Below are positions 15,854 to 42,554 of a stretch of 64,000 bases of DNA, one piece after another. Origin of the DNA: Acidocella sp. (GTDB lineage Bacteria > Pseudomonadota > Alphaproteobacteria > Acetobacterales > Acetobacteraceae); the NCBI GenBank assembly GCA_026224875.1, contig JAMFRU010000051.1, forward strand, positions 1 to 64,000, in the 5' to 3' direction. The notes beneath the pieces are model-generated. The model had not been told where the DNA came from. It did not search any database and saw nothing but the letters and a program-made list of their open reading frames with translations. Numbering within the stretch: position 1 is the first letter of the stretch; every line of letters starts with the position of its first letter. Position numbers and translations under genes: made by a program.

Positions 15854-17128
15854 TTAGAGGCGGGAGAGAATCTGCACAAAGCCACGCCGTTGCCATAGGT
15901 TCAGCACGTTGGTTAGCATATGCAGCTGAGTGCGCGCGGCCTCGCTTTTCTTAAAGCGGATATCGAAACGATCATGAGCAGGCGCCAGGTCCGGAATTTG
16001 CGCGCGGATGATCGGCGGGGCGTCGAGCAGCCAGGCCATGCCCATGGTAGCAACGTACAGGAATATGTGATCCTGCAACTGCGTCAGGGGAATGGCGGGA
16101 CCGCCATGTGCCTCGTATTCGCGCAGAAACAGAGACAGCAGCGCATCGAGCTGATCATCTAGCATGTCCGGCTCGGCGGCACTCAGTGTGCCCCAGAGGG
16201 CGAGGGCGATGTTCATCTGGCCGACACGGCCCCAATCCATCAGCCCGCAATGCAGCGCACCGTTTTCGCGCCGCCAGAACCAGGCGTTGTCGATATTGGC
16301 GTTCCAATGGCACAGCGCGATGAGATCCGGAGCGCTGGTGAGGAAGGTCTTTATCTCCGCCTGGCGCTCAAGGAAGAGTGGCATTTCTGCCGAGAGCTGC
16401 GCGATGAAATCTGACGCCACGATGTTGGCGGGCAGCAGACGCGGAAATTCTTCGGCGAAGGCGGCGATGCGGGCGATGCGGTTGCGTAATTGGCGGGCGT
16501 CGTAACGGATGGGATCGCTGGCGGCGGCCGCGGCGGGATCGAAGGGGAAAAGCAGACCGAGATTTTCACCGAGATGGCCGGATTTATGCGCGCCGGCGAG
16601 GCTTGCGTTGGCGGTGATCACGGCGCGGTAATGCGCCAGCGCATCGGGCAGCTCGTAATCCAGGCATTTATCGTAATGCGGCTCTATGCCGCCCATGCCA
16701 AACCCGATGCGCTCGGTGATGAGAATGCCGGTGCCGGATGCGTGGTGATAATCGCCGAACAAACAGGCGGGCACGGTGATGGGAAATGCGGGATGGCGCG
16801 AGATGGCGGCAAAGCGCACCTCTGGTTCCAACTGGTCGCGGCCGCGGTCGCGAATCGGGTCGTCGAAATCGCGCGAAAATTTGACGAAAAGGGTTTCCAA
16901 TAGACCAGCAGCTGGTTTTTCGTAAACGATGGACAGGAAAACCTTGCGCCCGGTGCTGCCGCCGGGGCATTCCTCGAACTGGGTGATACGCGCGACGGCG
17001 TTATCCGCACCCAGCACACCGCCGCTGCGGAACGCGGTGGTGAGGAAGGTTTCGCCGCCGTCGCGCAATGCGTCCATATGCGCGGGGATGGACAGGCCCA
17101 TGCCGTCGCCATGTACCCAGTGCTCCAT
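15854..17128 (-). CDS. aminoglycoside-phosphotransferase-fold protein with altered catalytic motif
   Basis: The 424-residue protein belongs to the kinase-like phosphotransferase family: HxDxxxxN-type segment LCHWNANIDNAWF at residues 272-284 and the metal-binding GLMDWG with D298. The expected catalytic Asp (HxD) is Asn276, while H274 and N281 remain. The fold is used for small-molecule or acyl-carrier substrates in many catabolic clusters. Loss of the Asp may mean altered mechanism, a binding role, or use of the nearby D280. It starts two bases after hyuA ends and is the last gene of the hyuB-hyuA unit. Confidence 0.72.
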   Translation of the reverse strand: MEHWVHGDGMGLSIPAHMDALRDGGETFLTTAFRSGGVLGADNAVARITQFEECPGGSTGRKVFLSIVYEKPAAGLLETLFVKFSRDFDDPIRDRGRDQLEPEVRFAAISRHPAFPITVPACLFGDYHHASGTGILITERIGFGMGGIEPHYDKCLDYELPDALAHYRAVITANASLAGAHKSGHLGENLGLLFPFDPAAAAASDPIRYDARQLRNRIARIAAFAEEFPRLLPANIVASDFIAQLSAEMPLFLERQAEIKTFLTSAPDLIALCHWNANIDNAWFWRRENGALHCGLMDWGRVGQMNIALALWGTLSAAEPDMLDDQLDALLSLFLREYEAHGGPAIPLTQLQDHIFLYVATMGMAWLLDAPPIIRAQIPDLAPAHDRFDIRFKKSEAARTQLHMLTNVLNLWQRRGFVQILSRL

Positions 17129-17130
17129 GA

Positions 17131-19206
17131 TCAGTGCCGCGTCAGCTCGTAATCGCCGGCGTCATCCACCCGCGCGTGCCAGCCGGGATAGACCACGATG
17201 GTGGTGAATATCTCCTGGATGATCGCAGGGCCAGTGACCTCGTGGCCGGGGGCGAGATCGCCACCGAAGAAGATGGGGGTTTCGGCAAAACCCTGGCCGA
17301 GATTGGCGCGGCGGGTTTTGCTGGGCTTTGCTTCCACGCGTGGCGTATCGAAACCCGCTGCCACCACTGGCGAGGGGGTGACCACATGGCTCGCCAGACG
17401 CACGCCGATGACCTCGGGCTGTTCGTGTTCGCGGATGTGGTTGTATTCAGCGAGATGGCGCTCGTTGAACAGAGCGATGGCGCGCTCGCCGATGGTGTCA
17501 TCGATGAAGGAGAGGTCGTGCAGTTTTCCATTCGGGTTCAAATCGAATGTGAGTGCGAAATTCTGCCCGGCGTAGCGCAGATTGATCTGGTAATTCGCGA
17601 CGATTTCCTCAGGCTTGAACGAGGCATCTGCGAAATATTTTTCGGCACGGTTGGCAAGTTCCGTCCACAGCGCTTTCAGCCGGGCCGTGTCCAACGCATT
17701 GGCTTTGGCGACATAGGAGCGTTCTTCATCGATGCTCGGGTTGGCAACCAGTGTACCCAAAGCCGAGAAGCTGGGCGAGGCTTTGGGTACCAGCACACGA
17801 GAAATACCGAGATCATCGGCCTGGATGGCGGCGAAGGCCGGACCGTTGCCGCCATAGGCCAGCATGACGAGGTTTTTCGAGTCTACCCCGCCCTGGCTCG
17901 CCGTGGTGCGGCGCACGCCTTGCGACATATTGGCGTTGACGACACGCCAGCAATCAAACGCGGCGTCCTCGGCGGAATAGCCCATCTGCGCACCGATTTT
18001 TGCGAAAGCCTCCTCGACCCGATCACGCTTGAGGCTGAAACTGCCGCCGGCGAAACCGGCTTCGGTGGAGAGAATGCCGAGCATGACCAGGGCATCGGTA
18101 ATGGTCGGCTGGGTGCCGCCTTTGCCGTAGCAGATCGGGCCAGGGACGGAACCGGCCGAGGCGGGGCCGACGTGCAGCGCACCACCTTTGACATGGCAGA
18201 TCGAGCCGCCGCCGGCACCGAGCGTTTCCACCTTCACCATCGGCACGCCGATGAGATAGCGATGGTGCATGTTCCAGCCGGCTTCGGCAGGTGCTGAGCC
18301 GTTGATGACCAACGACATGTCGTAAGAGGTGCCGCCGAGATCCACGCACAACAGGTTGGGATGGCCCTTCGCGCTGCCAACATGCGCCGAGCCGACCACA
18401 CCGCCAACCGGGCCGGAGGCGAGCACGCGGATGGGCGCACCGTCGATATATTCTTTCGTCATCACGCCGCCATTGGCCTGCATTACGAGCAGTTGCCGGG
18501 CGTAACCATTCTCCCTGAGGCGGGTAGCCAGACGTTCGATATACGCGGTAACGGGCGGGGCGATGTAGGCGTTGACCACCGTGGTGCTTGTGCGGTCAAA
18601 CTCCGGGCCGCGCGGCAGCACTTGATGCGAGAGCGAGATGGAAGCACCCGGCATTTCCTCGGCGATAATCTCGCCGATTCGCTTTTCATGCGCCGCGTTG
18701 ACGAAGGAAAACAGCAGGGAAACCGCAACCGAAGTTACATTCTGTTTTCGTAATTTTCGGCAAGCCACACGCACTGAGTCTTCATCGAGCGGCTTATGTA
18801 CGTCACCATTGAACAACACGCGCTCGGACACGGTGAGGCGGCGGCGGCGCGGGGTTATCTGCTTCGGCGGGGCGAGGCGAACGTCCCAGATATCCTCTTT
18901 GAAACCACGGCGGTATTCGATCTCGTCTCGAAACCCTTCAGTGGTGATAAGGCCGGTAAGTGCGCCATTCATTTCGATAAGGGTGTTGTCTGCCACGGTG
19001 GTGGCATGCACGATTGCGTCGCAATTGCCGAGGAATTCGCGCAGCGACAGGCCTTCCTTCTCGCTGAGCTTCTCCAGCCCGTTCATCACGCCGATGGAGC
19101 GATCCTCCGGTGTGCTGAGATTTTTATGGACGATAACGCTTGAACCTTTGAGAAACGCAAAATCCGTGAACGTGCCACCAATATCAATGCCGACGCGAAA
19201 ACCCAT
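17131..19206 (-). CDS. hydantoinase/oxoprolinase family protein, A subunit
   Basis: The 691-residue HyuA-type protein starts MGFRVGIDIGGTFTDFAFLK, the ATP-binding first strand of the ASKHA fold, and has LLCVDLGGTSYDMSLV and LGAGGGSI in the centre. Relatives with HyuB form ATP-dependent amide-ring hydrolases (hydantoin, oxoproline) or acetone/acetophenone carboxylases. The two types cannot be told apart from these motifs alone. It follows hyuB by 58 bp and leads straight into the phosphotransferase. Confidence 0.9.
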   Translation of the reverse strand: MGFRVGIDIGGTFTDFAFLKGSSVIVHKNLSTPEDRSIGVMNGLEKLSEKEGLSLREFLGNCDAIVHATTVADNTLIEMNGALTGLITTEGFRDEIEYRRGFKEDIWDVRLAPPKQITPRRRRLTVSERVLFNGDVHKPLDEDSVRVACRKLRKQNVTSVAVSLLFSFVNAAHEKRIGEIIAEEMPGASISLSHQVLPRGPEFDRTSTTVVNAYIAPPVTAYIERLATRLRENGYARQLLVMQANGGVMTKEYIDGAPIRVLASGPVGGVVGSAHVGSAKGHPNLLCVDLGGTSYDMSLVINGSAPAEAGWNMHHRYLIGVPMVKVETLGAGGGSICHVKGGALHVGPASAGSVPGPICYGKGGTQPTITDALVMLGILSTEAGFAGGSFSLKRDRVEEAFAKIGAQMGYSAEDAAFDCWRVVNANMSQGVRRTTASQGGVDSKNLVMLAYGGNGPAFAAIQADDLGISRVLVPKASPSFSALGTLVANPSIDEERSYVAKANALDTARLKALWTELANRAEKYFADASFKPEEIVANYQINLRYAGQNFALTFDLNPNGKLHDLSFIDDTIGERAIALFNERHLAEYNHIREHEQPEVIGVRLASHVVTPSPVVAAGFDTPRVEAKPSKTRRANLGQGFAETPIFFGGDLAPGHEVTGPAIIQEIFTTIVVYPGWHARVDDAGDYELTRH

Positions 19207-19264
19207 TACAAACTCCCAGATCGGCAGCGCCGATCAAACTCTCACGGACCCGCTTGCGCGGTTA

Positions 19265-21082
19265 TTATTCAGCGGCCAGCGCGCCGCGCATTTCCTGCCG
19301 CAGCACTTGCGTGGCTTTAACATCCACGGCCAGGTCATATTCTTCCAGGCTGCCGGTCAGCACCACGCCGTATTTTTCGCGCGCGGCACCCAGGCTAACA
19401 TACTCGTCCAGCACGTCTTCCTTCACCGCCTCTGGGTCGCGTAAAATCGCCGGGCCGAAGCCTGCCCCGCCGCCATGCTGATAGGCTATGGTGGCACCCG
19501 CCGGGAGTTGCGCCTGGGCGGTGCGTTCGATCTTATATTCATTAGGCGAGCCTACCTCGAAATGATTGGTGTAGGGGATCGCATCATCACCACCGCACAT
19601 GCCGCGCAGGGGATGGTCGGCCGAGACCATCCAGGCGACTGCCATGGTCGGCGCCAGCACTGTTTTCACGTTCAAACTGCCGGGCGCGCCGCGCCATTGG
19701 CCGGCACCGCCGCCATCGGTTTTCATCTCGCGGCTGATGTTGAGAATGGGAAAACGTGTCTCCGCATCCTCGGCCTCGGAGAGCAACAGATTACCGAGGC
19801 TGACCGGACATGACCCCCAGCCGTCGATGCCCTGCACGGCGGAGCTGTCCATCGAGCGGCAATCCACCCCCTGGTCCATCCACATCATGCCATTGGCATC
19901 GAACCCCATCACTGCATTCGGCATGCCAATTTTATACAATTGCGGTGCCGCACGTTCCGGAACCACCTGGCTGAGGCAGAGACAAACCGCTTCCGTGATC
20001 TCGCAAGCTGGATGGAAGGAACCCAGAGCGGCCGGCTTGCCCGGCGGCGGCTGGGCGATGCAGCCTTCGGGGATGATGATGTCAACCGCGTCGAACAGGC
20101 CTTCGTTCTTGTCGATCGAAGGGTCGATGGCTGCCCCCACCTGCGTCATTACATAGGAGCGGCTGTTGGCAAAGGTGTTCCATACGCCGACGAGGGTTTG
20201 CCGGTCATCCGTGCCGGTCAGATCCACCGTGAGCTGGTCGCCTTTGATGCTGCAGGCGACATGCACTTTCACATCGCGCGTGCCGACCGTGTCATGGTCG
20301 ATCAGCACCGTCGCCTCGTAAACACCATCGGGCCAGCGCGACACTTCTTCACGCATGCGCTTCTCACTCTGGATGATCGCGTGGTTGATGGCGGCTTTCA
20401 CCTTGCCGGAACCTTGCGCGCGGATCATCGTCTGCAATTTCACCGCCGCCTGCTGCACGCCGCCGATCATCGCCGCGAGATCGCCGCCGAAGGTCGCGAA
20501 ACGGTTGTTGCGCTCCAGCATATGGATCACGTCACGCCGTTTCTCGCCACGATGCACCAGCTTCAGGCACGGGTAGGATACGCCTTCGGTGTAAATATCG
20601 GTTGCTTCCAGCGTGAACCCGCCGGGGTCCTTGCCGCCGGTATCACCTTGATGCGCCTGCAGGGTCTGGAACAGAATCAGCTCGCCGGCATCGTCGAACA
20701 CCGGGGTGTAGACGCAATAATCCGGCAGATGCCCGCCGCCATATTCGGGATCGTTGGAGAGCAGCACATCACCCGGGCCGATGTCGTATGCATCCATGTT
20801 CATCAGCGCCCAGCGCACCATCATCTGGTTGACGAAAGTGAGGTGCGGCGTGCCGATGGCACCCATGGCCAGGCGCCCCTGCGCATCCACAATCGCGGCA
20901 TTGCGCTCGTTGGAGGAGTTGATGATCGGCGAGGAGGCGGCACGGCCCAGATGCGTCGCGGCTTCAAAACAGATCGTCTCGAACGCGCCGCGGATGATGC
21001 CGGCGGTAACGGGGTCGATATTGGCCCCTGTGGGCAGCGGCGGGCGCTTGGCGGCCAGCTTCCGGTTCAGTTCAAACGACAT
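19265..21082 (-). CDS. hydantoinase/oxoprolinase family protein, B subunit
   Basis: The 605-residue HyuB-type protein has VTAGIIRGAFETICFEAATHLGRAA near the start, the GAIGTPHLTF and GDVLLSNDPEYGGGHLPDY regions, and the glycine-rich end GATIAYQHGGGAGFG. Together with HyuA it would hydrolyse an amide ring or carboxylate a ketone with ATP. ATG 21082 is chosen because AGGAGG precedes it at about nine bases. It is downstream of a 67-codon ORF and first of the large genes of this leftward unit. Confidence 0.9.
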   Translation of the reverse strand: MSFELNRKLAAKRPPLPTGANIDPVTAGIIRGAFETICFEAATHLGRAASSPIINSSNERNAAIVDAQGRLAMGAIGTPHLTFVNQMMVRWALMNMDAYDIGPGDVLLSNDPEYGGGHLPDYCVYTPVFDDAGELILFQTLQAHQGDTGGKDPGGFTLEATDIYTEGVSYPCLKLVHRGEKRRDVIHMLERNNRFATFGGDLAAMIGGVQQAAVKLQTMIRAQGSGKVKAAINHAIIQSEKRMREEVSRWPDGVYEATVLIDHDTVGTRDVKVHVACSIKGDQLTVDLTGTDDRQTLVGVWNTFANSRSYVMTQVGAAIDPSIDKNEGLFDAVDIIIPEGCIAQPPPGKPAALGSFHPACEITEAVCLCLSQVVPERAAPQLYKIGMPNAVMGFDANGMMWMDQGVDCRSMDSSAVQGIDGWGSCPVSLGNLLLSEAEDAETRFPILNISREMKTDGGGAGQWRGAPGSLNVKTVLAPTMAVAWMVSADHPLRGMCGGDDAIPYTNHFEVGSPNEYKIERTAQAQLPAGATIAYQHGGGAGFGPAILRDPEAVKEDVLDEYVSLGAAREKYGVVLTGSLEEYDLAVDVKATQVLRQEMRGALAAE

Positions 21083-21133
21083 TCTTTTGCGCCCTCCTGG
21101 CACGGTATAGGCCAGCCATCACGGCCGGCCGTC

Positions 21134-21337
21134 TCAATGTTCGGTAAAGCCGGGGTCGGCCGGGGAGAATCCCGGCGCGGTCTCCGCTTGCTGCAATTTA
21201 GCCGAATCCGCGCAGTAGACCGACACGGTGATGCCGAGATCCAGATGATCGCCGGCACCCACGCATAGGGTTCCCCCAACGCTGTTCGCTTTGGCGGTAC
21301 GTTTCTCGGGCACACGCCGCAGGGTCGTTTGACGCAT
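21134..21337 (-). CDS. small ORF upstream of hyuB, unknown
   Basis: The 67-residue ORF starts MRQTTLRRVPEKRTAKANSV and ends near FSPADPGFTEH. A GGAG stands six or seven bases before the ATG at 21337 and its third codon positions are GC-rich like real genes here. It is 51 bp before hyuB in the same direction. It has two Cys only. Acetone carboxylases have a small third subunit, but no clear similarity is visible, so I call it unknown and possibly a partner of HyuAB. Confidence 0.45.
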   Translation of the reverse strand: MRQTTLRRVPEKRTAKANSVGGTLCVGAGDHLDLGITVSVYCADSAKLQQAETAPGFSPADPGFTEH

Positions 21338-21568
21338 CCTTCGCTCCATAATTCGCAGTCTTTGAGCAAATCTAGCTACGCGCGGCGCGGCGCGGCAGCA
21401 AGCAGAGCGAGGGCCTGCTGCCATCTGCGGCAAGCGGGGATGCATTACGAGACCAGCCGTGCCGCGGCGGATATGGTTGAAGAATTGGGCAAGCCGGACT
21501 GCATGGGGAGGCATTTGCCCTATCCTGCCCCGGTGATAGGACGAGCGGGCTGGAGGGTTTGTCTGTTT

Positions 21569-21883
21569 ATGGCTTCGGGTGAATTTACGAAAGCGGCACA
21601 GCTTAGTGACGTGCCGCATGGTGCCAAACTGGTGGTTGAGATAAATGGCAAACCCATTCTGCTATGTAATTGGAACGGCAAGGTTTTTGCGGTCTCCAAC
21701 ATCTGCTCGCATGCCGAGGAAAAGCTCGATTGCGGCCGCATGTCCAATGGCTGGATCGCCTGCCCGATCCATGGCGCACGGTTTGACCTGGCCACCGGTA
21801 AAGCCAAGAATCCACCCGCCAAACAGCCGATCCCGATCTATGCGGTGCAGCTTGTCGACGGTTGGATCGAGGTTGACGCCTGA
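21569..21883 (+). CDS. Rieske [2Fe-2S] ferredoxin-type protein
   Basis: The 104-residue protein carries the Rieske motif CSHAEEKLDCGRMSNG then ACPIHGARFDL, ligands C46, H48, C65 and H68. Small free Rieske ferredoxins pass electrons to ring-hydroxylating oxygenases, and an oxygenase alpha subunit lies 9 kb downstream. ATG 21569 has GGAGG 11 bases upstream; the frame continues upstream but with no family match. It is divergent from the hyuB unit and directly before the AraC gene. Confidence 0.9.
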   Translation: MASGEFTKAAQLSDVPHGAKLVVEINGKPILLCNWNGKVFAVSNICSHAEEKLDCGRMSNGWIACPIHGARFDLATGKAKNPPAKQPIPIYAVQLVDGWIEVDA

Positions 21884-22018
21884 TGGTCACCGGCCCCGCT
21901 ATGCCACATCGCACAAGCGATAATGGCCGATTTACCTTGTCCGGCCCCGGGGTTTGTCTTAGAGTATCAAGCCTAAGGGTGCGTACAAAAAAAGGCGCCT
22001 GCGGAAGGAGATCGGCAG

Positions 22019-23011
22019 TTGCCCGTATTGGCTTTTGACATGACAACCGCAAATCATGAGCTTCGGCGCCATGAATTTCGCGGCAAAAATAACTCTGACT
22101 ATTATGAGGGCGAGCTGCGCCCCATCTCGCCGCGCGATGTGGATATGCGCATCGAGAAGAGCGTGGCCGGCGAGTATTACATCTATAAGCTCACCTCGCG
22201 TTCGGGCCTCGTGTTCCGTCGCTCGTGGGCGCATATTCGCTCGGACAAAACCAATGTAACCGTGTTCTGGTTCGTCCGGCGCGGGACTATTACCGTGTCC
22301 TACCCTGGCGCCAAACATCAGATCAGCCCGCAGGAATGCGCCGTTACCCGCTCCTGCAGGCCCTTCAACATGGAGCTGACGCCGGATAAGAACGGGCTGC
22401 TCGAGGCCATGCATGTGGTCGTGCCCTCGCATGAGCTGCATTCCATCATCAGCGACGGGCTGGAAGCCGGCCGCCCCTTCCCCACCACCAAGGGCGATCT
22501 GTTTCTGGTCGAGCGGATTTTCACTTTGCTGTTCGATGAAGACGATCAGATCGACGCTGACATCTCCGAGCAACTTGTCCGGACCTTGCTGACCGGACTT
22601 GGCAAATCCATCACCCGGTTCGGCGGCATCCCGGCACCGCGCAGCTCGATTGCCGAGAAGCGCACATCCGATATCAAGACCTGCATCAGCCGGCATATCG
22701 CCAATCCGGATTTGAATGCGCGGATGGTGGCCGAGCGCTGCGGCATCTCGCTGCGGTATCTCTGCCATATCCTCAAAAAGAACGATCTGTCCTTCTCGCA
22801 TCTAATCTGGGAGCGGCGGATTGAAATGGCCGAGGCCTGGCTGAAGGACCCCGCCATGCAGCATCATCTGGTGTGCGAGATCGCCTATCTGGTCGGGTTC
22901 AAAAGCAGCGCGCATTTCAGCCGCATGTTTAAAACACGGTTTGGCGTGGCCCCGCGCGAATATCGCGACCGGCATGCTAAATCCGCCGCGGCCGCACTGG
23001 CTGCCGTTTAA
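22019..23011 (+). CDS. AraC-family transcriptional regulator
   Basis: The 330-residue regulator has an N-terminal AraC-binding-like domain (SVAGEYYIYKLTSRSGLVF; the dimerisation and effector part) and a C-terminal double helix-turn-helix with VAERCGISLRYLCHIL and VGFKSSAHFSRMFKTRFGV. A TTG at 22019 is preferred because GGAAGGAG lies eight bases before it; ATG 22040 is the alternative. It precedes the NTF2-DUF7065-kinase-SDR-P450 unit by 140 bp and is the probable activator of it, as AraC regulators commonly sense pathway substrates. Confidence 0.88.
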   Translation: MPVLAFDMTTANHELRRHEFRGKNNSDYYEGELRPISPRDVDMRIEKSVAGEYYIYKLTSRSGLVFRRSWAHIRSDKTNVTVFWFVRRGTITVSYPGAKHQISPQECAVTRSCRPFNMELTPDKNGLLEAMHVVVPSHELHSIISDGLEAGRPFPTTKGDLFLVERIFTLLFDEDDQIDADISEQLVRTLLTGLGKSITRFGGIPAPRSSIAEKRTSDIKTCISRHIANPDLNARMVAERCGISLRYLCHILKKNDLSFSHLIWERRIEMAEAWLKDPAMQHHLVCEIAYLVGFKSSAHFSRMFKTRFGVAPREYRDRHAKSAAAALAAV

Positions 23012-23151: not shown

Positions 23152-23583
23152 ATGGATCCGCTGGATCGCTTGCAAGCCATTGAAGACATCCGCTTGCTGA
23201 AGGCGCGCTATTTCCGGTTCATGGACACCAAACAATTCGACCGTCTCCCGGAGTTATTTGCGCCGGATATGCAGGTGCTGACCCCGAGCGGTGCGGTGTA
23301 TACGGATAGCGGGCCCGCGTTCGCCGCCAGCCTGAAACATTCGCTGGAACATAGCGTCTCCGTGCATCAGGGTTTCATGGGCGAGATCGATATACTCGAC
23401 GCGCATAACGCCACGGGAGTATGGGCGATGCAGGATGTGATTGAATGGGCCGACCGGCATCCGGTGCAGGGATGGAAATCCATTACCGGGCGCGGCCATT
23501 ATCACGATACCTACCGCAAAATTGACGGCGCCTGGCGGATTGCCAGTTTTACCCTCACCCGGCTGCGGCTGGATACGATTTGA
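23152..23583 (+). CDS. nuclear transport factor 2-like (SnoaL-like) protein
   Basis: The 143-residue protein starts MDPLDRLQAIEDIRLLKARYFRFMDT and has WADRHPVQGWKSITGRGHYHDTY then IASFTLTRLRL, the cone-shaped NTF2-like fold of the SnoaL-like family. Such proteins act as dehydratases, isomerases or cyclases on steroid, polyketide or terpenoid substrates. It is first of the rightward unit, 20 bp before the DUF7065-like gene. The exact reaction is not known. Confidence 0.82.
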   Translation: MDPLDRLQAIEDIRLLKARYFRFMDTKQFDRLPELFAPDMQVLTPSGAVYTDSGPAFAASLKHSLEHSVSVHQGFMGEIDILDAHNATGVWAMQDVIEWADRHPVQGWKSITGRGHYHDTYRKIDGAWRIASFTLTRLRLDTI

Positions 23584-35300: not shown

Positions 35301-35748
35301 CGCTTTCCGCGAAGACCTCGCCCGCCAGTTCGACGGCAATTACAAAATCGCCCTCAACCTCGCCCCGCCTTTGCTCGCCTTCCGTCGCGACGCCAAAACT
35401 GGACGCCCGAAAAAAATTGAGTTCGGACCATGGATTTTTCCGTTGCTAAAACTTATGAGCCAGCTAAAACCCCTGCGCGGCACGTTGCTGGACCCGTTCG
35501 GCTACACCGCCGAACGCCGCATGGAGCGCCGGCTCATTACAGAATATCGTGAAATGATTCTTGCACTCGCCGCCAGCGTTACCGATGCCACCATGGACCA
35601 GGCTACCGAAATCGCTGGTGCCGCGCATCTTATCGCCGGCTACGGTCCGGTGAAGGACGATGGCGAAAAAGCATATCAGGCGCACATAAAGACATTGCTT
35701 GCAGCCTACGGTAATGTCGCACAGGAAATGGCCACGGCGGCCGAATAA
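32320..35748 (+). CDS. indolepyruvate-type (2-oxoacid) ferredoxin oxidoreductase, fused
   Basis: The 1142-residue protein fuses the alpha (TPP) and gamma parts, the long alphaproteobacterial form. It has YRGSPITTLDAQLW near the N-terminus, the TPP-binding GDGTYTHSG at about residue 490, a ferredoxin domain with CEGCGDCSRQSNC (from about residue 623) and SCIKGFCPSF, and the C-terminal gamma domain with GIGGTGVLTVG. It converts an aryl or branched 2-oxoacid plus CoA to acyl-CoA, reducing ferredoxin. Start GTG with GGAG ten bases earlier. Its place between a Rieske oxygenase and a flavoprotein suggests a pathway-specific oxoacid. Confidence 0.93.
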   Translation: MTKTVVTLADRYEQRSGQIFLSSMQALVRLPLDQKRRDVAAGLVTGGYVSGYRGSPITTLDAQLWASQKLLDAHDIHFEPGLNEELAATSLRGTQQLGWFGKTRFDGVFAMWYGKGLGVDRACEALKLANFEGTHAKGGVLVVAGDDHAAKSSASAHQSEHTLIVGFIPILAPSTTAEILEYGQLGWEMSRFSGLYVGMKTVTDTLDLTSSVTLPELSIIRPELAGRNLNLRRSLPALVQESLVVNERLPTAIEFARANGLNRVIIAPARRQLVIVTSGKSYLDVRQALRDLGLDEARCAALGIGLIKLGMTWPLDQEFIRNACADARALLVVEEKRPVIEDQLATALYSLPTRPEILGKRDEQGRVLFPLDGVLDAGLVRHAILHRLEALGLVDDELTRRSAALDAIASAALSPAAAIRPAYFCSGCPHNSSTNIPEGSLALGATGCHGLAAFMPERRTMNVVGMGAEGLAWVGAQHFVETQHVFSNMGDGTYTHSGILAIRAAISAKANVTFKILYNDAVAMTGGQPLEGNTSVDMIIRELQAEGVKPVILVSDEPEKFKDQTVRVLHRDHLDEVQRELREVAGVSAIVYEQTCANEKRRRRKRGDYPDPDLRLFINPAVCEGCGDCSRQSNCVSITPLETEFGRKRAIDQSNCNKDYSCIKGFCPSFVSLRGAKPAKRAADTSGLDALIKKLPVPAIVDVTDSYSVLVTGIGGTGVLTVGAILGMAAHMEGKSAKVLDMTGMAQKGGGVMSHVRFSASADHIPSARLGTGQTDLLVACDLIVASGPDVVKTIRADTHVAANEDVVPTGEFQTRPDVDLSPTTFMHAIEQRIGKGNISLLRANELAAKLLGDTIFTNLMMVGFVAQKGLLPVGLEAIEEAVRLNGTAVKQNLMALSLGRLAAAFPTELMAFAKLTSTGQPQTPAEMISSRAKHLTAYQNAAYAKTYTEFMDDMAARLRGHDAAPFLMQVANQLARLMAYKDEYEVARLYSLPAFREDLARQFDGNYKIALNLAPPLLAFRRDAKTGRPKKIEFGPWIFPLLKLMSQLKPLRGTLLDPFGYTAERRMERRLITEYREMILALAASVTDATMDQATEIAGAAHLIAGYGPVKDDGEKAYQAHIKTLLAAYGNVAQEMATAAE

Positions 35749-35764
35749 CAATACGGGAGCAAAA

Positions 35765-37477
35765 ATGGCCGAAACATATGATGTGATCGTCGTGGGCTCC
35801 GGTGCGGCCGGTATGACCGCGGCCCTGCGCGCGGCCGAGCTTGGCCTGCACGTCCTCATCGTCGAGAAGGCGCATAAATATGGCGGCACCACGGCCACCT
35901 CTGGCGGTGTCGCCTGGATCGCCAATCATGGCCTCGGCGGCACCAGCGACACGCGCGAAGAGGCCCTGACCTATCTCGACGCGGTGATCCAGGGCCCGGT
36001 CAACCGCGAGCGGCTGGAAGCCTATGTCGATACCGGGCACAACATGCTCAGTTTTTTAGGCAAGCTCGGCATCAACTTCATTCCCATGCCCTGGCCCGAT
36101 TATTTTGCCGAACTGCCAGGCTCACGCACCGACCGCTCGCTGGTGCTGCCAATGTGGGATGGCCGCAAACTTGGCAACAAATTTCCGTTGGTACGCGAAC
36201 AATTTCCGCGTTTCAAACTCTTCAACCGCTACGCCATGAATCTGGCGGAGACATTCACCATCGCGGCCCGCGCCAAAGGCTGGAAGCGGATGCTCGCCGG
36301 CGTTATCTCGCGTTATTGGAGGGATCTGGCCACGCGCAAAATCACCAAGCGCGACCGCTGGTTTACCTCGGGCAATGCTGTCATCGGCCCGTTGCTGGAG
36401 CAGCTTTCCGCCAAAAATGTCGAGATCAGGCTTGAGACAAAACTTGAAGAGCTGATCGTCGAGAATGGCAAAGTCGGCGGCGTGCGCGTGAGCCGTTTCG
36501 GCACGCCTTACGAGATTTCGGCGCGCCACGGCGTCGTCATTTGCGCCGGCGGGTTCGAGTGGAATCAGCAGCTGCGTGATCGTTTTTATCCCGTAAAAAC
36601 TTCCATCTGGTGGACTAGCACGCCGCAAGGTGCAAACACCGGCGATGCGCTCCTGGCAGCCGAAGCCATAGGTGCTACCACGGAACACACAGAGGAAGGC
36701 TGGTGGGCACCGACGATGATCATGCCCAGCGCCAGTGCCTCGAATTTTGAGGAAGTACACCAGGCCGTGTTTGATGTCGGCCGGCCCTCCAGCGTCTGCG
36801 TCAACCGCAATGGCGACCGGTTTGTGAACGAGAGCTGCAGCTACGATCGTTTCGGTGTCGGAATGGTTGAGGACCAGCAGAAGACCGGCGCGAATTTGCC
36901 ATGCTGGCTGGTGTTCGACGCCGTCTTCCGCGCCAAATTCACCGCCGGCGGGTTCCTGCCCTCCGCCATCATGTCCGACAAATCCCTCCCCGTGGATTGG
37001 TGGGATCATTATATTTTCAAATCGGATAACATCGCCGATCTAGCGAAGAAACTGCAGCTTGATCCAGCGAAGTTGGTCGATGTAGTAAAGCGTATGAACG
37101 AATACGCCGCCAAGGGAGAGGACCCGGAGTTTGGCCGCGGCAGCACAATTTATGACCAGGCGTTTGGCGACCCTACCTGCAAACCCAACCCGGCGCTCGG
37201 TCCCATCATCAAAGCGCCCTTCTACGCCATTCCGATTCACCTGGGCGATCTCGGCACCAAAGGCGGCCTCAAGGCCGATGCCAAGGCGCGCGTACTGGAC
37301 GGTAATGATCAGCCCATTCCCGGCCTGTTTGCCGCCGGCAATGCTACCGGCAGCCCCTTCGGTCTGAACTATCCAGGCGCAGGCGGCACCATCGGCCCAG
37401 CCATGGTATTCGCTTTTATCGCCGCCAACGAAATTACCGCCCGCGCCAGCAACCGCGATGTAAGCAGCGCGGCATAA
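35765..37477 (+). CDS. FAD-dependent 3-ketosteroid-delta1-dehydrogenase-like protein
   Basis: The 570-residue flavoprotein has the FAD-binding VIVVGSGAAGMTAALRAAE near residues 6-24, GGTTATSGGVAWI, and the C-terminal NYPGAGGTIGPAMVFAFIA, which resembles the KstD end with its flavin-contacting Gly-rich loop. KstD-type enzymes introduce a double bond into the A ring of 3-ketosteroids; related ones dehydrogenate other cyclic ketones. A fumarate-reductase-like oxidoreductase is the broader alternative. GGGAG precedes the ATG by five bases; it follows the oxidoreductase by 16 bp. Confidence 0.82.
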   Translation: MAETYDVIVVGSGAAGMTAALRAAELGLHVLIVEKAHKYGGTTATSGGVAWIANHGLGGTSDTREEALTYLDAVIQGPVNRERLEAYVDTGHNMLSFLGKLGINFIPMPWPDYFAELPGSRTDRSLVLPMWDGRKLGNKFPLVREQFPRFKLFNRYAMNLAETFTIAARAKGWKRMLAGVISRYWRDLATRKITKRDRWFTSGNAVIGPLLEQLSAKNVEIRLETKLEELIVENGKVGGVRVSRFGTPYEISARHGVVICAGGFEWNQQLRDRFYPVKTSIWWTSTPQGANTGDALLAAEAIGATTEHTEEGWWAPTMIMPSASASNFEEVHQAVFDVGRPSSVCVNRNGDRFVNESCSYDRFGVGMVEDQQKTGANLPCWLVFDAVFRAKFTAGGFLPSAIMSDKSLPVDWWDHYIFKSDNIADLAKKLQLDPAKLVDVVKRMNEYAAKGEDPEFGRGSTIYDQAFGDPTCKPNPALGPIIKAPFYAIPIHLGDLGTKGGLKADAKARVLDGNDQPIPGLFAAGNATGSPFGLNYPGAGGTIGPAMVFAFIAANEITARASNRDVSSAA

Positions 37478-37488: not shown

Positions 37489-38445
37489 GTGACCGAAACA
37501 TTCGACGCCCTCTCGACGGCGGAAGAGGTGCTGGCCGGCATCGATCTGCACGGCAAGCGCATCCTTGTCACCGGTGTGTCCGCTGGCATCGGCGTAGAAA
37601 CAGCGCATGCGCTGGCGGTGCGTGGAGCTACCGTTTTTGGTGCGGCACGCGACCTGACCAAAGCCAAAGCCGCCATAGCGCGCGTGCAGGGCGATACGCC
37701 AACCAGCGGCTCCGTCACTTTGGTCGAGCTTGACCTCGCTTCGCTCGCCAGCGTGCGCGCCTGCGCCGGCCAGATGGCGCTGCAGGGTCCATTCGATTTG
37801 ATAGTGGCCAATGCAGGGCTTATGGGCCCGCCCTTGGGCCGCACGGCGGAAGGTTTCGAAACGCAATTCGGCGTCAACCACCTCAGCCATTTCGTGCTGG
37901 TCAACCGCCTCGCCCAGTGCATCCGCCCCGGCGGCCGCGTCGTCGTGCTCGCCTCCTCAGCGCATCACATTGCGGACATCAACCTCGACGACCCGAATTT
38001 CGAGCATACGGAATACACGCCCTATCTCGGTTACGGCCGCTCCAAAACCGCTAACATCCTGTTTGCGGTCGAGTTCGACCGCCGGCACCGCGCCCGCGGG
38101 ATTCGCGCCACCGCAGTACATCCGGGAGGCGTGGAAACCGAATTGGGCCGCTATATGGACCCAGCCACGCGCGAGGCCCAGCGCAAGGCGCTGGGCGATG
38201 CCAGCACCTGGAAATTTGTGCGCAAAAACGCGGCGCAAGGTGCATCAACCTCCGTCTGGGCCGGCGTATACGCACCCGCCGACGAAGTGGGCGGCCACTA
38301 TTGCGAAGATTGCCACGTTGGCGAAATATTACCGGGTCCGGCCGCGAGCCCCATGGGCCCAGGTGTGGCTGCGTATGCGATTGACCCTGAGCGCGCCAAG
38401 GCTCTTTGGAAGAAGAGCGAGGAGTTGGTAGGAGAAAGCTTCTAA
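37489..38445 (+). CDS. short-chain dehydrogenase/reductase (SDR), oxidoreductase type
   Basis: The 318-residue SDR has ILVTGVSAGIGVETAHALA, NAGLMGPPLGRT, NHLSHFVLVNRL and the active-site YGRSKTAN, of the retinol-dehydrogenase/WW-oxidoreductase-like subgroup. It starts with GTG after an AAAGGAG. It is the last gene of the amidohydrolase-Rieske-oxidoreductase unit and stops into a three-hairpin repeat. It probably handles an alcohol/ketone step of the same substrate. Confidence 0.9.
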   Translation: MTETFDALSTAEEVLAGIDLHGKRILVTGVSAGIGVETAHALAVRGATVFGAARDLTKAKAAIARVQGDTPTSGSVTLVELDLASLASVRACAGQMALQGPFDLIVANAGLMGPPLGRTAEGFETQFGVNHLSHFVLVNRLAQCIRPGGRVVVLASSAHHIADINLDDPNFEHTEYTPYLGYGRSKTANILFAVEFDRRHRARGIRATAVHPGGVETELGRYMDPATREAQRKALGDASTWKFVRKNAAQGASTSVWAGVYAPADEVGGHYCEDCHVGEILPGPAASPMGPGVAAYAIDPERAKALWKKSEELVGESF

Positions 38446-38449: not shown

Positions 38450-38568
38450 AAGCAGTTACTTTTTTGTAAAAAAGTAACCAAAAAACTTTTGGCCCTGTGG
38501 GCGTTGGCATGGCCAATGCCCACAGGGCCAAAAGTTTTTTGTGCAGCTTTTTCAAAAAGCTGCTGCTT
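38450..38568. repeat. three-hairpin repeat element, copy 2
   Basis: This copy has hairpins GTTACTTTTTT/AAAAAAGTAAC (38455-38478), a long stem around CTTTTGGCCCTGTGGGC / GCCCACAGGGCCAAAAG, and GCAGCTTTTT/AAAAAGCTGC (38543-38563). Compared with copy 1, the first stem differs by paired changes (GTACC/GGTAC versus GTTAC/GTAAC) and the second stem gains a pair. It starts just after the SDR stop and its end overlaps the stop of the leftward 3-hydroxyisobutyrate dehydrogenase gene. Confidence 0.85.
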
Positions 38569-39451
38569 AACTTTCGCGAATCGCCTTAATTATTCCTGAA
38601 AAATCGACCCCGCCCTGCCCCGCGGCAACAAAACTCTGATAGATTTCCGCAGCATGTTTCCCCAGAGCGGTGCTGGCTCCGGCGGAAGCCGCGGCTTCCT
38701 GGCTCAGTAACAAATCCTTCAGCATCAACGCCGCGGCAAAGCCGGGTTTGTAGTCGTTGTTAGCCGGGCTGGTGGGTACTGGCCCCGGCACCGGGCAGTA
38801 GGTGGTCAACGACCAGCATTGGCCCGAGGCAGTGGAGGCGACATCGTACAACGCCTGGTGCGACAGCCCTACTTTTTCGGCCAGCACAAACGCCTCGCCC
38901 ACCGCGATCATCGAAATACCGAGGATCATGTTGTTGCAGATTTTCGCTGCCTGTCCTGCGCCGGCGTCACCGCAATGCACGATCTTTTTGCCCATCAGTT
39001 CCAGCACAGGTTTTGCACGCGCAAAATCGCTAGCGGCACCACCGGCCATGAAGGTAAGCGTACCGGCAGATGCCCCGCCGACACCACCGGACACCGGCGC
39101 ATCGAGGTTCAGCATGCCCGCCGCCACCGCCAGCGCATTCGCCGCCCGGGCACTGTCGATATCGATGGTGGAGCTGTCGATAAACAGCGTACCCGCTGAC
39201 GCCGCCTGCAGAATCCCGCTGCCATAAAGCTCCAGCACCAATTTTCCGTTGGGCAGCATCGAAATCACGATCGACGCGCCCTTCACCGCCTCAACAGCGG
39301 TAGCAACAACCGTAATCCCAGCCTTCGCCGCGGCCTCATTGGCCGCCGGCACAACGTCAAACCCCTGCACTTTGTGCCCGGCCTTGGCGAGGTTAGTTGC
39401 CATCGGCAGCCCCATATTGCCCAGCCCGATAAACCCGATCGTTTCAGTCAT
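38567..39451 (-). CDS. 3-hydroxyisobutyrate dehydrogenase family protein
   Basis: The 294-residue protein has the NAD-binding GFIGLGNMGLPMATNLAK, the DAPVSGGVGGA substrate loop and the catalytic Lys in GAGQAAKICNNM, with a normal length. It oxidises 3-hydroxyisobutyrate in valine breakdown, or related beta-hydroxyacids. The acyl-CoA dehydrogenase gene upstream fits branched-chain acyl-CoA breakdown. The last codon borders the three-hairpin element. Confidence 0.9.
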   Translation of the reverse strand: MTETIGFIGLGNMGLPMATNLAKAGHKVQGFDVVPAANEAAAKAGITVVATAVEAVKGASIVISMLPNGKLVLELYGSGILQAASAGTLFIDSSTIDIDSARAANALAVAAGMLNLDAPVSGGVGGASAGTLTFMAGGAASDFARAKPVLELMGKKIVHCGDAGAGQAAKICNNMILGISMIAVGEAFVLAEKVGLSHQALYDVASTASGQCWSLTTYCPVPGPVPTSPANNDYKPGFAAALMLKDLLLSQEAAASAGASTALGKHAAEIYQSFVAAGQGGVDFSGIIKAIRES

Positions 39452-39462
39452 AACAGCCCCCT

Positions 39463-40614
39463 TTATTGCGGCGCCAGCAGGCCGCGCGCGATGATGACGC
39501 GCATGATTTCGTTGGTACCTTCAAGGATCTGATGCACACGCAAATCGCGCACGATCTTCTCGATCCCGTAATCAGATAAATAACCATAACCACCCAGTAA
39601 TTGCAGCGCCTGGTTGGCAATCTCGAACCCGGTATCGGTCACAAAGCGTTTGGCCATGGCACAGAGTTTCGTGGCATCCGGCGCCTTGTCATCCAGTGCA
39701 CAGGCCGCGCGCCACAGCAGCAGCCTTGCTGCTTCCAACTCCGTTGCCATATCCGCCACGCGGAATTGCAGCGCCTGAAACTGGCCGATGTTTTTGCCGA
39801 ACGCCTTGCGCTCTCCCAAATAGGCAATGGCCTTATCGAGCGCGCTCTGCGCCCCGCCCAGCGAGGCCGCGGCGATGTTGATCCGCCCGCCATCCAGCCC
39901 GGCCATGGCGATTTTGAAGCCGATGCCCTCGGGTCCAAGCCTGTTCGCCACCGGCACGCGCACATCTTCCATAATCACCTGGCGCGTCGGCTGGGCGTTC
40001 CAGCCCATTTTGTATTCGTTGGCGCCGAAGGAGACGCCCGGCATGTCCTTCTCGATGATCAGGGTCGAAATCCCTTTCGCCCCCTCCTCGCCGGTGCGTA
40101 CCATCACGGCATAAATCTCGGCCACGCCGGCGCCCGAGATAAATTGTTTTACACCGTTAACCATATAATGGTCGCCATCCAGCACCGCCTTCGTGCGCAG
40201 TGCCGCCGCATCGGAGCCGGCGGATGGCTCCGTTAAACAATAACTGGCGAAATGCTCCATGCTGCAAAGCGCCGGTAGATATCTGGCCCTCTGCTCATCA
40301 TTGCCATAACGGTCGATCATACCCGCAACCATGTTGTGGATCGAAATATACGCGGCAATCGTCGGGCAGCCCGTGGCCAAAGCCTCGATGATCAGCGCCG
40401 CATCGAGCCGCGACAGGCCCGAACCGCCCAACGCCTCATCGACATAAATACCGCCCATGCCCAAGGCCGCGGCGGTGCGCATTGTCTCCAGCGGAAAATG
40501 CTTCGTCCTGTCCCATTCCACCGCGAAGGGCGCCAGATGCTCATCGGCAAAGCCACGCGCCATATCGCGTATGGCCTCCTGCTCCTCGCCCAATGCAAAA
40601 CACAGGCCGCTCAT
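39463..40614 (-). CDS. acyl-CoA dehydrogenase (isobutyryl-CoA type)
   Basis: The 383-residue flavoprotein has ASYCLTEPSAGSDAAALRTKA, FISGAGVAEIY and the C-terminal QLLGGYGYLSDYGIEKIVRD and ILEGTNEIMR, where the Glu is the catalytic base of medium-chain type enzymes. It would oxidise isobutyryl-CoA or similar to the enoyl-CoA with FAD and ETF. ATG 40614 with a GGGGAG upstream is preferred to an upstream longer frame. It is co-directional with the 3-hydroxyisobutyrate dehydrogenase, 11 bp away. Confidence 0.9.
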   Translation of the reverse strand: MSGLCFALGEEQEAIRDMARGFADEHLAPFAVEWDRTKHFPLETMRTAAALGMGGIYVDEALGGSGLSRLDAALIIEALATGCPTIAAYISIHNMVAGMIDRYGNDEQRARYLPALCSMEHFASYCLTEPSAGSDAAALRTKAVLDGDHYMVNGVKQFISGAGVAEIYAVMVRTGEEGAKGISTLIIEKDMPGVSFGANEYKMGWNAQPTRQVIMEDVRVPVANRLGPEGIGFKIAMAGLDGGRINIAAASLGGAQSALDKAIAYLGERKAFGKNIGQFQALQFRVADMATELEAARLLLWRAACALDDKAPDATKLCAMAKRFVTDTGFEIANQALQLLGGYGYLSDYGIEKIVRDLRVHQILEGTNEIMRVIIARGLLAPQ

Positions 40615-40639
40615 CCACCGCTCCCCAATATTCTTGGCG

Positions 40640-40677
40640 CCACCATAGGCTTCAACAAACACGCACGCCTATGGTGG
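40640..40677. promoter_or_regulatory. inverted repeat in the acyl-CoA dehydrogenase leader
   Basis: CCACCATAGGC at 40640-40650 and GCCTATGGTGG at 40667-40677 form a perfect 11-bp inverted repeat with a 16-bp spacer, 26-63 bp upstream of the gene's ATG on the minus strand. It can be a dimeric regulator site or a leader hairpin. A second weaker pair, ATGTG/CACAT, lies at 40693-40710. Confidence 0.45.
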
Positions 40678-40714
40678 ATTTTCGCGCCTCCAATGTGTGT
40701 TAATTCACATATGC

Positions 40715-41578
40715 TTAACGGCGATCCAAGAACTCCAATATCATCGGCGCCAGCAACGGCCAGCGTTCGAACCGCCCGCGGCCGGGCGCATTCGGAATCA
40801 TCCCGCAATTGTTCCATTCCTGGTCGGGCCAAGGCGGCTCCACCAGCTGCGCATTGGGCAACAGTGCCGCCACCTGCTCACTCGCCTCGCGTGTGTGAGA
40901 AAGGTCGCTCTTGCCGCTGCGCAGCACAATCGCTGGCATGGTCAACCGGGCAAACTGCTCCGCCGAAATTCCCGGCACGGGCGATACGCGCGAATAGGCA
41001 TAGCCCTCGGCCCAGAGCTGCATTTTGGCGATGAACGCATCCGCGTCCCATTTCAGTATAAGCTCGCGGTTGCGCGGATTACGGGCAATCTGGTCGGCAA
41101 AACCGGGCAGTGCCGCCACCGCCGCCATGCCGCCCTTGGTCGCCGCCGCGGCTGCATCGGCGCAATAATAAGTCGCGAGCTGTGCCAGCGAAATCGCGCC
41201 GCCGCTGACCCACCAGATGAATATTTTACTCACATACTTCGGCATCCGCGCCGCCGCCAGCAGCGAGATTCGCGAGCCGGCCGAACCGCCCACCAAAGCG
41301 AACCGCTCCAACCCAAGTGCTGCGGTCAGCCCCACCAGCGTGTCCGCATGCAAAACCGATTCGCTTGCACCATCGAAACTGATATCGGACGCACCGCAAT
41401 TAGGCCGGTCCCACGACAATACGCGGTAACCACCCTGCACCAGCTCGGCCGCCAGCTGCGGCAGGCCGGGTGTGTCGCGCGGGTAGCGCCCGCCTGGCGT
41501 CAGAATAACCAGCGGCGCATCCGCCGCCCCGAAAAATGCGTAATCGATCTCGATACCGCCGACATCCTGCTTCGCCAT
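40715..41578 (-). CDS. alpha/beta hydrolase
   Basis: The 287-residue protein has LVILTPGGRYPRDTPGLPQL, the oxyanion-region WDRPNCGASD and the nucleophile elbow GGSAGS (Ser of GxSxG). A catalytic Asp/His pair near the C-terminus is not obvious by eye. It could hydrolyse an ester, lactone or C-C bond in the island. ATG 41578 has GGGGAG five bases upstream. It is divergent from the IclR gene and is the first gene of the leftward unit with the acyl-CoA dehydrogenase. Confidence 0.8.
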   Translation of the reverse strand: MAKQDVGGIEIDYAFFGAADAPLVILTPGGRYPRDTPGLPQLAAELVQGGYRVLSWDRPNCGASDISFDGASESVLHADTLVGLTAALGLERFALVGGSAGSRISLLAAARMPKYVSKIFIWWVSGGAISLAQLATYYCADAAAAATKGGMAAVAALPGFADQIARNPRNRELILKWDADAFIAKMQLWAEGYAYSRVSPVPGISAEQFARLTMPAIVLRSGKSDLSHTREASEQVAALLPNAQLVEPPWPDQEWNNCGMIPNAPGRGRFERWPLLAPMILEFLDRR

Positions 41579-41729
41579 TTCGCTCCCCATTTCTTCATCG
41601 CAGCGCCGCTTCAACGCGGCTTCATAACCCTTCCGGCAACTCTATGACATGACTGTAGGCGAAAACACCCGCCGCAAATATTGCCGCCAGAACCCCTGCC
41701 CCGCAAAACTTGCAATGTTTTTTGTTTTG

Positions 41730-41763: not shown

Positions 41764-41795
41764 CGTTAAGGCAACACTATTAAGGACGGAGCCCA

Positions 41796-42554
41796 ATGGC
41801 GGTCAAGCGTAGTCTCAGTGCCGGGCGCATGCTGTCGGTGTTCGAACTCGTGGCGCAGCTCCAACCCATCGGGGTGAGCGCGCTGGCCCGCGAGTTGGTC
41901 GCGGATAAATCCGCCGTGCAGCGCGACATTATGACCCTGGCCGATGCCGGCTGGATCCGCCTGGTACCGGGCCTGCGCGGGCAATGGGAGCTTACACTGC
42001 ATGCGCTCTCTTTGGCCCGCCCGCCGCACAGCAGCCACAGCCTGCGCCACCGCCTGCGCCCCATGCTGGAGCGGCTGCACGAGAGCAGCGGCGAGACCGT
42101 GTACTTAACCCTGCCGTATCAAAAACATTTCATCGTGGTAGATGCGCTGGAGAGCCAGCACATGCTGCGCGTGGTACCTTCCATCGGCATGAGCGTGCCG
42201 CTGCAGGGGAGTGCCACGGCGCGCGCCTATCTCGCGTTTTTGCCCGCCGCGCCAGCGGAGGCTTTGCTCGGCGGGCCGCCCTCCGCCGCCATGCTGGAGG
42301 ATTTCGCCCTCACCCGCGAGCGCGGCTATGCGGTAAACGATGGCGATATCCTGCCCGGCTCGGTCGCCATCGCCGCCCCGGTGCTCACCGGCCCGCATCA
42401 GCCCGTCGGCGCGCTGGTGCTGGTCGGGCCGCATGAGCGCATTCCGCCGGCACGCCAGCGCGAAATCGGCATGGCATTGCGCGAGGCAGGACGCGGCACA
42501 ATGGAAGCCTGGCCAGGCGAACACGCGCCGCGCCCGGGTGTGCTGGTGGGGTAA
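41796..42554 (+). CDS. IclR-family transcriptional regulator
   Basis: The 252-residue protein has an N-terminal winged helix-turn-helix (SLSAGRMLSVFELVAQL and VSALARELVADKSAVQRDI) and a C-terminal effector domain with LHESSGETVYLTL and ERGYAVNDGDILPGSVAIAAPVL. IclR regulators often control aromatic or acyl-CoA catabolic operons. Its divergent position to the hydrolase/acyl-CoA dehydrogenase unit suggests it governs that unit. Confidence 0.88.
   Translation: MAVKRSLSAGRMLSVFELVAQLQPIGVSALARELVADKSAVQRDIMTLADAGWIRLVPGLRGQWELTLHALSLARPPHSSHSLRHRLRPMLERLHESSGETVYLTLPYQKHFIVVDALESQHMLRVVPSIGMSVPLQGSATARAYLAFLPAAPAEALLGGPPSAAMLEDFALTRERGYAVNDGDILPGSVAIAAPVLTGPHQPVGALVLVGPHERIPPARQREIGMALREAGRGTMEAWPGEHAPRPGVLVG

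Follow-up and report, generated by a model that had tools for sequence, protein, structure and literature searches.

The window analysed here makes up the initial 64 kb of a contig of 82.6 kb (C118) in a 3.87-Mb Acidocella genome that is 95% complete, and carries a catabolic gene island at 15854-42554, in which a cytochrome P450, a Rieske oxygenase, HyuAB, a KstD-like dehydrogenase and a DUF7065-DUF7064 protein lie together. Gene families in the island were assigned by Pfam and NCBIfam, and motifs were located by a scripted sequence scan (Table 1). The island is real, and the gene list drawn up in an earlier, sequence-only reading of this DNA stands with small corrections. All of the parts named there were found, but three SDRs rather than four lie inside the island (at 25403, 27578 and 37489), the fourth being outside it at 44024. 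Of the two small-molecule kinases claimed, the CPT-like one (chloramphenicol-phosphotransferase type) is recognised by Pfam, and the other is assigned as a kinase by predicted fold only.

Table 1. Features of the island in window coordinates, with the second locus on contig C21 of the same genome.
Feature	Position	Strand	Remarks	Basis
APH/choline-kinase-fold phosphotransferase	15854-17128	-	424 aa; last gene of HyuB-HyuA-kinase run	Predicted fold
HyuA, ATP-binding subunit, hydantoinase/oxoprolinase family	17131-19206	-		Pfam/NCBIfam
HyuB, hydantoinase B/oxoprolinase subunit	19265-21103	-		Pfam/NCBIfam
Rieske-type ferredoxin	21569-21883	+	~104 aa; open frame 21329-21883	CxH...CxxH motif and conservation, not Pfam
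AraC-family regulator	22019-23011	+		Family scan
SnoaL/NTF2-like putative dehydratase, BaiE-like	23152-23583	+		Pfam and PDB sequence matches
DUF7065-DUF7064 protein, 25-phosphosteroid-lyase-like	23604-24539	+	RDTSFG at residue 168	Pfam, predicted fold, profile
CPT-like P-loop kinase	24549-25244	+	GTSGSGKS	Pfam/NCBIfam and motif
SDR 1	25403-26257	+		Family scan
Cytochrome P450	26206-27567	+	Heme-Cys motif FGGGPHKCIG	Family scan and motif
SDR 2	27578-28426	+		Family scan
[2Fe-2S] ferredoxin	28423-28752	+		Family scan
Terminator-like hairpin	28793-28835	+	20-bp stem and T run; between P450 run (after ferredoxin gene) and VOC	Consensus scan only
VOC-family protein	28873-29337	-	154 aa	Family scan
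Amidohydrolase	29481-30806	+	Prolidase-like group	Family scan
Rieske oxygenase large subunit	30819-32222	+		Family scan
Fused 2-oxoacid (indolepyruvate-type) ferredoxin oxidoreductase (IOR)	32320-35748	+	1142 aa	Pfam/NCBIfam
KstD-like FAD dehydrogenase	35699-37477	+	Catalytic-type Tyr residues present	Pfam/NCBIfam and PDB match
SDR 3	37489-38445	+		Family scan
3-Hydroxyisobutyrate-dehydrogenase-like protein (HIBDH)	38567-39451	-	Not an SDR	Family scan
Acyl-CoA dehydrogenase (ACAD)	39463-40662	-		Family scan
Alpha/beta hydrolase	40715-41614	-		Family scan
IclR-family regulator	41796-42554	+		Family scan
Second locus	C21:40560-50774		L101, L102	

Judged by strand and spacing, the island appears to be divided into five or more transcription units. 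On the minus strand these are HyuB-HyuA-kinase, VOC and HIBDH-ACAD-hydrolase; on the plus strand, one run extends from AraC through NTF2-like-DUF7065-CPT-SDR1-P450-SDR2-ferredoxin and another comprises amidohydrolase-Rieske oxygenase-IOR-KstD-SDR3. The true starts of the P450 and KstD-like genes are probably downstream of the called starts. The [2Fe-2S] ferredoxin is the probable partner of the P450, with which it occurs together in other loci. For the Rieske ferredoxin, whose gene is separated from that of the Rieske oxygenase by 9 kb, the likely ATG was read from the sequence at 21569. Among the island genes scanned with Pfam and NCBIfam, no match to the Rieske oxygenase small-subunit family was obtained. 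The oxygenase itself reads QEAYHVIITH, apparently with Glu at the position of the bridging Asp that is usual in naphthalene-type Rieske oxygenases.

For analysis of co-inheritance, the Rieske oxygenase was used as a query; the 49 loci retrieved were divided into 37 orthologs (identity of at least 60%, plus L053, whose oxygenase gene runs into a contig end and which was therefore added manually) and 12 paralogs. Ortholog loci span up to 10 kb on each side of the oxygenase, and 10 of the 37 are shorter than 15 kb. The amidohydrolase was the most constant partner, lying less than 500 bp from the oxygenase in 32 of 37 ortholog loci (26 of the 27 that are at least 15 kb long) and in none of the 12 paralog loci. 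Within the same ortholog loci the P450 was found in 19, its ferredoxin in 20, VOC in 19, the Rieske ferredoxin in 18, IOR in 17, KstD in 12, HyuB in 6 and HyuA in 4; none of these genes exceeded the threshold in any paralog locus. HIBDH and ACAD occurred in only 3 of 37. Whole-genome checks, covering the genomes behind 20 of the 49 loci, detected relatives of KstD in all 20 (51–92% identity), of HyuA in 18 (68–90%) and of the APH-like kinase in 13 (best per genome 42–83%).

The order of these genes is conserved in some genomes and rearranged in others. The block from the APH-like kinase to IclR (15854-42554) recurs gene for gene in three other genomes (L010/L080, L011/L081 and L041/L082), and the alpha/beta hydrolase and IclR pair is present in locus L031 too. 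In Ketobacter (Gammaproteobacteria; L092, L028) there are two CaiB genes, an AraC-like regulator and a P450-SDR2-ferredoxin-KstD-aldo/keto reductase-APH-like run, then transporters and cofactor-type genes and, further on, IOR-VOC-amidohydrolase-oxygenase-Rieske ferredoxin, with a hydratase and HyuA just ahead of this stretch. In Solimonas (Gammaproteobacteria), one contig holds the oxygenase, amidohydrolase, VOC, IOR, APH-like kinase, hydratase, KstD, ferredoxin, SDR2, P450, AraC-like regulator and HyuA within ~35 kb; the CaiB pair was not seen in the Solimonas stretches examined. In the Sphingobium/Sphingomonas loci L018 and L044 (the latter from Sphingomonadaceae), SDR2-P450-ferredoxin is divergent from amidohydrolase-oxygenase, CaiB-type CoA-transferase genes come next (after HyuB-HyuA in L018) and SDR1-KstD is nearby.

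As the core orthologs stay together in shuffled orders across two classes, inheritance of the core as one catabolic pathway across Alpha- and Gammaproteobacteria is supported. The sequence-only reading had assigned every part of the island to a single pathway, and had named separation of the parts in relatives as evidence that would count against it; on this point the core holds up, and the NTF2-like, DUF7065 and CPT genes do not. This trio is present in 3 of 37 ortholog loci, confined to a close group, and therefore appears to be an add-on tuning the core pathway to some substrate, one that does not define the core. For the same reason the marker set put forward in that reading (DUF7065, NTF2-like, HyuAB and the fused oxidoreductase) holds only in part, remote DUF7065 relatives also being found in genomes of the family sample that showed no close oxygenase ortholog.

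A sample of the window's family (249 genomes, its own among them) contained close relatives of the oxygenase (at least 60% identity), amidohydrolase (at least 60%) and P450 (at least 55%) in just one genome besides the own, G080; the three orthologs lie inside 4.4 kb there. Distant matches (40–50%) were obtained for the oxygenase in 2 further genomes and for the amidohydrolase in 18.

On a plasmid of Sphingobium sp. WTD-1 typed as conjugative (L079), an incomplete oxygenase gene of the same type adjoins an IS256 copy, with a further oxygenase piece ~12 kb off and an amidohydrolase gene nearby. An island-type cluster seems to be decaying there, and this copy, with its oxygenase gene truncated next to IS256, was set aside as uninformative.

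By seeking, in the own genome, recurrent partner genes that are missing from the window, a second locus was found on contig C21. It encodes a fused CaiB-CaiB CoA-transferase, an enoyl-CoA hydratase, an aldo/keto reductase, SDRs and a zinc alcohol dehydrogenase, and its acyl-CoA dehydrogenase gene adjoins an APH kinase (PF01636). The hydratase is 80% identical to the Solimonas hydratase that adjoins KstD, and relatives of it occur in 18 of the 20 genomes (best per genome 60–97%); the aldo/keto reductase is 63–64% identical to proteins of the oxygenase loci L033 and L043. The C21 cluster is probably the other half of the island pathway.

The DUF7065 protein was examined through its AlphaFold model (pLDDT 85). 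When the model was compared with the PDB by Foldseek, the top five matches were chains of 25-phosphosteroid lyase (E 1.3e-10 to 8.9e-10, TMq 0.67–0.70), followed by kievitone hydratase, AttH and Diels-Alderases. A nine-sequence profile searched against PDB sequences likewise placed 25-phosphosteroid lyase first (E 2.4e-4), with ~100 residues aligned over RDRSWG. The corresponding motif of the window protein is RDTSFG, and the product-complex chain 9g4c has RNRSWG; because Asn stands there in that chain, we infer that the motif Asp of the lyase is catalytic. The lyase name was taken from 2026 PDB titles (9fsg, 9fzn, 9g2i, 9g4c), and judging from these titles the entries are presumably the Sterolibacterium enzyme. 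The NCBIfam Rv3169 model also matches the window protein, far under its cut-off (34.6 versus 150 bits); the gene next to Rv3169 is Rv3168, which encodes an APH-fold protein. Predicted fold and sequence profile agree in marking the DUF7065 protein as a remote homologue of 25-phosphosteroid lyase, and phosphate elimination would be a better reading of it than the hydration step that had been proposed from the sequence.

The precedent for such a reaction comes from sterol degradation, where 25-hydroxysteroid kinase (25-HSK) phosphorylates the tertiary C25 alcohol (excerpts of PMC8449060). In that 2021 account the lyase gene was called unknown, with no lyase candidate near the 25-HSK gene, and in 2024 the lyase was still "putative" (excerpts of PMC11061730). 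DUF7065 was detected in 27 of 385 genomes of a class sample, own genome included, and in none of 14 control genomes; in the family sample, remote relatives (25–31%) occurred in 6 other genomes. For kinase adjacency, 22 of 35 DUF7065 loci were used (30 of the 35 from the class sample and 5 from the family sample); the 13 dropped, the window's own L117 included, had no callable motif-bearing open reading frame (ORF). As L124 and L137 are one gene, the 22 loci represent 21 distinct genes. An adjacent APH kinase was recognised by motif in 10 of 22 lyase-like loci (10 of 21 distinct genes), from 6 genera (L004, L005, L121, L122, L127–L130, L133 and L134). By Pfam, 12 of the 44 immediate neighbours were APH kinases, two above the motif count. 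Several of these kinase genes overlap the lyase-like gene by ~4 bp. The kinase-plus-lyase gene pair thus recurs, and in the window island the adjacent kinase belongs to another superfamily.

That neighbour is the CPT-like kinase, whose gene starts 9 bp after the DUF7065 gene. The other candidate, at 15854-17128, lies 2 bp from HyuA and had no Pfam or NCBIfam match at E 0.001. Its AlphaFold model (pLDDT 93) adopts an APH/choline-kinase fold according to Foldseek (best E 2.5e-7, TM mostly 0.4–0.5). APH kinases usually carry the motif HGDxxxxN, with the catalytic Asp in HGD, and this protein reads HWNANIDN instead. Its family would either use a different catalytic base or not be a kinase.

From these data a wider proposal can be made: that the DUF7065/DUF7064 proteins form a broad group of lyases acting by phosphate elimination, with an APH kinase gene frequently alongside, and would dehydrate inert alcohols with ATP well beyond the anaerobic sterol degraders; and that in the island an unrelated CPT-like kinase substitutes, the setting being an aerobic pathway rich in oxygenases, with a polycyclic isoprenoid as substrate and a core common to Alpha- and Gammaproteobacteria. 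This proposal is tentative, and the odds seem to us a little against it in its full breadth.

Clues to the substrate come from two further proteins. For the KstD-like protein, the best solved relative in a PDB sequence search was 3-oxosteroid 1-dehydrogenase 7p18 (E 1e-129), and the Tyr/Gly motifs PDY, YDRFG and YPGAGG are kept in alignment with 7p18 and KstD chains, the catalytic tyrosine positions being presumably those described in the literature for 4c3x. The only PDB matches of the NTF2-like protein at E 0.001 were BaiE bile-acid 7-alpha-dehydratases (best E 1.8e-14); when aligned with BaiE, it keeps the Tyr, Asp, His and Asp positions (YFRFMD, SVHQG, WAMQD) that we take to form the BaiE active site. 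Together with the DUF7065 protein, these similarities lead us to lean to a polycyclic isoprenoid substrate, in line with the large steroid- or terpenoid-like compound that had been suggested; no support was found for the aromatic or lignin-type substrate named with it.

On this basis the island is proposed to encode a single aerobic pathway, inherited as a unit, for the breakdown of a steroid- or triterpenoid-like polycyclic isoprenoid with a hindered, probably tertiary, alcohol, a reading to which we assign even odds (about 0.5). The P450, its ferredoxin and the SDRs would oxidise carbons to alcohols and ketones, KstD would introduce double bonds beside a ring ketone, and the BaiE-like NTF2 protein would remove a hydroxyl beta or vinylogous to the enone. 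A hydroxyl unable to leave by this step would first receive a phosphate, the adjacent CPT-like kinase being the likeliest enzyme for this, after which the DUF7065 protein would expel the phosphate to leave an alkene, an ATP-dependent dehydration. The Rieske oxygenase and Rieske ferredoxin would hydroxylate the activated ring, and the amidohydrolase and ATP-dependent HyuAB would hydrolyse ring bonds, with no target assigned. IOR would convert a released 2-oxo acid to an acyl-CoA, the acyl-CoA dehydrogenase and hydroxyisobutyrate dehydrogenase would handle a branched short acyl product, and the CaiB fusion, enoyl-CoA hydratase and aldo/keto reductase of contig C21 would supply later steps.

A number of observations weigh against this pathway. 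The KstD-like protein falls under the NCBIfam equivalog cut-offs (best model 504.7 versus 789 bits). KshA (PF19298) was not found in the own genome, by a search that lacked a positive control, since it matched only one of the 14 control genomes, and that one below the cut-off; the absence makes a canonical 9,10-seco steroid route unlikely. At 11–13% identity the lyase match is remote, within a fold that also includes hydratases and Diels-Alderases, and 12 of the 22 lyase-like loci, from 8 genera, have no adjacent kinase by motif. For the 15854-17128 protein, phmmer matched nothing among PDB sequences at E up to 1, hence not 25-HSK, and its model has no specific 25-HSK match (rank 12, TM 0.43–0.46; Rv3168 at rank 20); the catalytic-loop Asp is replaced by Asn276 in 20 of 20 aligned sequences (H-x-N-A-x-x-D-N), with Asp280 nearby. 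The restriction of the NTF2-like, DUF7065 and CPT genes to close relatives belongs here as well. Finally, the top score of HyuA, although sub-cut-off, is to a caprolactamase model, which would suit a lactam, and neither HyuAB nor the amidohydrolase has, to our knowledge, a place in the degradation of steroids.

The last of these points leads to a different substrate, a polycyclic nitrogen heterocycle (a lactam, or an alkaloid that might be steroidal or terpenoid), in which HyuAB would open a lactam with ATP, the amidohydrolase would cleave the product, and the P450, Rieske oxygenase and KstD would prepare the carbon rings. The best hidden Markov model for HyuA is caprolactamase alpha (CapA), at 558 bits, and its best PDB sequence is N-methylhydantoinase; the constancy of the amidohydrolase beside the oxygenase and the wide occurrence of HyuA relatives would also fit. 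Island HyuAB has the same domain architecture as caprolactamase CapAB, N-methylhydantoinase and acetophenone carboxylase, but remains below the equivalog cut-offs of the matched models (557.8 and 227.1 bits for CapAB, against 1000 each). Although HyuAB appears closer in sequence to ATP-dependent lactam hydrolases than to ketone carboxylases, the family also includes the latter, and no amine oxidase or transaminase family was seen among the island genes scanned. A nitrogen heterocycle seems unlikely, if still the strongest competitor. Two other routes were tried and put aside: lignin acetophenone degradation (phosphotransferase plus carboxylase) was rejected, HyuA being nearer to hydrolases than to acetophenone carboxylase, and abscisic acid degradation was dropped, as the excerpts of PMC9599779 showed no gene set for comparison.

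An aromatic, estrogen-like 4,5-seco pathway would instead use P450 hydroxylation and ring cleavage, after which IOR would form an acyl-CoA as EdcC does. The edc estrogen-degradation cluster of Novosphingobium/Caenibius tardaugens shares with the island a P450 (edcA) and an IOR-family oxidoreductase gene, edcC, with a VOC gene immediately before it (excerpts of PMC7793797), and IOR and VOC adjoin in several gammaproteobacterial loci. The main text of that paper contains neither 'Rieske' nor 'amidohydrolase'. No large extradiol dioxygenase of the EdcB type was matched, in a search confined to the island genes scanned; the VOC protein has only 154 aa, and an aromatic A ring would leave both KstD and the BaiE-like protein without a function. 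We consider this route improbable. Much the same holds for the idea that several unrelated catabolic units (hydantoinase, P450, Rieske/IOR/KstD and branched-acyl) lie side by side by chance: the number of transcription units, the two regulators, the strong hairpin between units and the rarity of both the NTF2-like/DUF7065/CPT and the HIBDH/ACAD genes at ortholog loci would favour it, but co-occurrence across two classes in shuffled order, with none of six core genes at any of the 12 paralog loci, makes chance a poor explanation.

Compared with described systems, the polycyclic isoprenoid pathway proposed here is closest in its phospho-lyase module to Sterolibacterium denitrificans (25-HSK, excerpts of PMC8449060; lyase, PDB entries above), with which it shares a lyase-like fold, the RDxS[WF]G motif and a kinase gene alongside. 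The island differs in lyase sequence, in its neighbouring kinase, which is P-loop CPT-like and not APH-like, and in being rich in oxygenases, whereas the Sterolibacterium route is oxygen-independent. In the Delta-4,6 bile-salt route of Sphingobium sp. Chol11, the 7-hydroxysteroid dehydratase Hsh2 and KstD steps parallel the island BaiE-like and KstD-like genes, but Chol11 has five KshA homologues (excerpts of PMC8399759) and none was found in the window's genome. A catabolic gene cluster is a known kind of system, and this combination was not met in the searches made of an open-access library, where no paper turned up with five of six key terms; the earlier statement that no described pathway has this exact set is not contradicted. 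The most testable part is the phospho-lyase module. If the proposal is true, a reaction that can be tested is assigned to DUF7065, so far a family of unknown function; ATP-dependent dehydration extends beyond anaerobic sterol degraders into aerobic soil bacteria; and a pathway that occurs in many environmental genomes can be probed directly with a few substrates and two small proteins.

Several other ORFs in and beside the island were discounted as shadow ORFs. Those at 40697-41647(+), 42603-43124(+), 43206-43790(+) and 21959-22801(-) had no family match and lie opposite a matched strand, and that at 21134-21619(-), also without a family match, overlaps the opposite-strand frame with the Rieske motif. 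Just outside the island, 42567-47441 holds two TetR regulators, the fourth SDR and an HlyD/MFS efflux pair. Beyond it, at 47637-55209, genes for an OprB porin, a DyP-type peroxidase, an NHL-repeat protein and an ABC importer (ATPase, permease and binding protein) follow consecutively, a row that looks like an iron or solute uptake unit.

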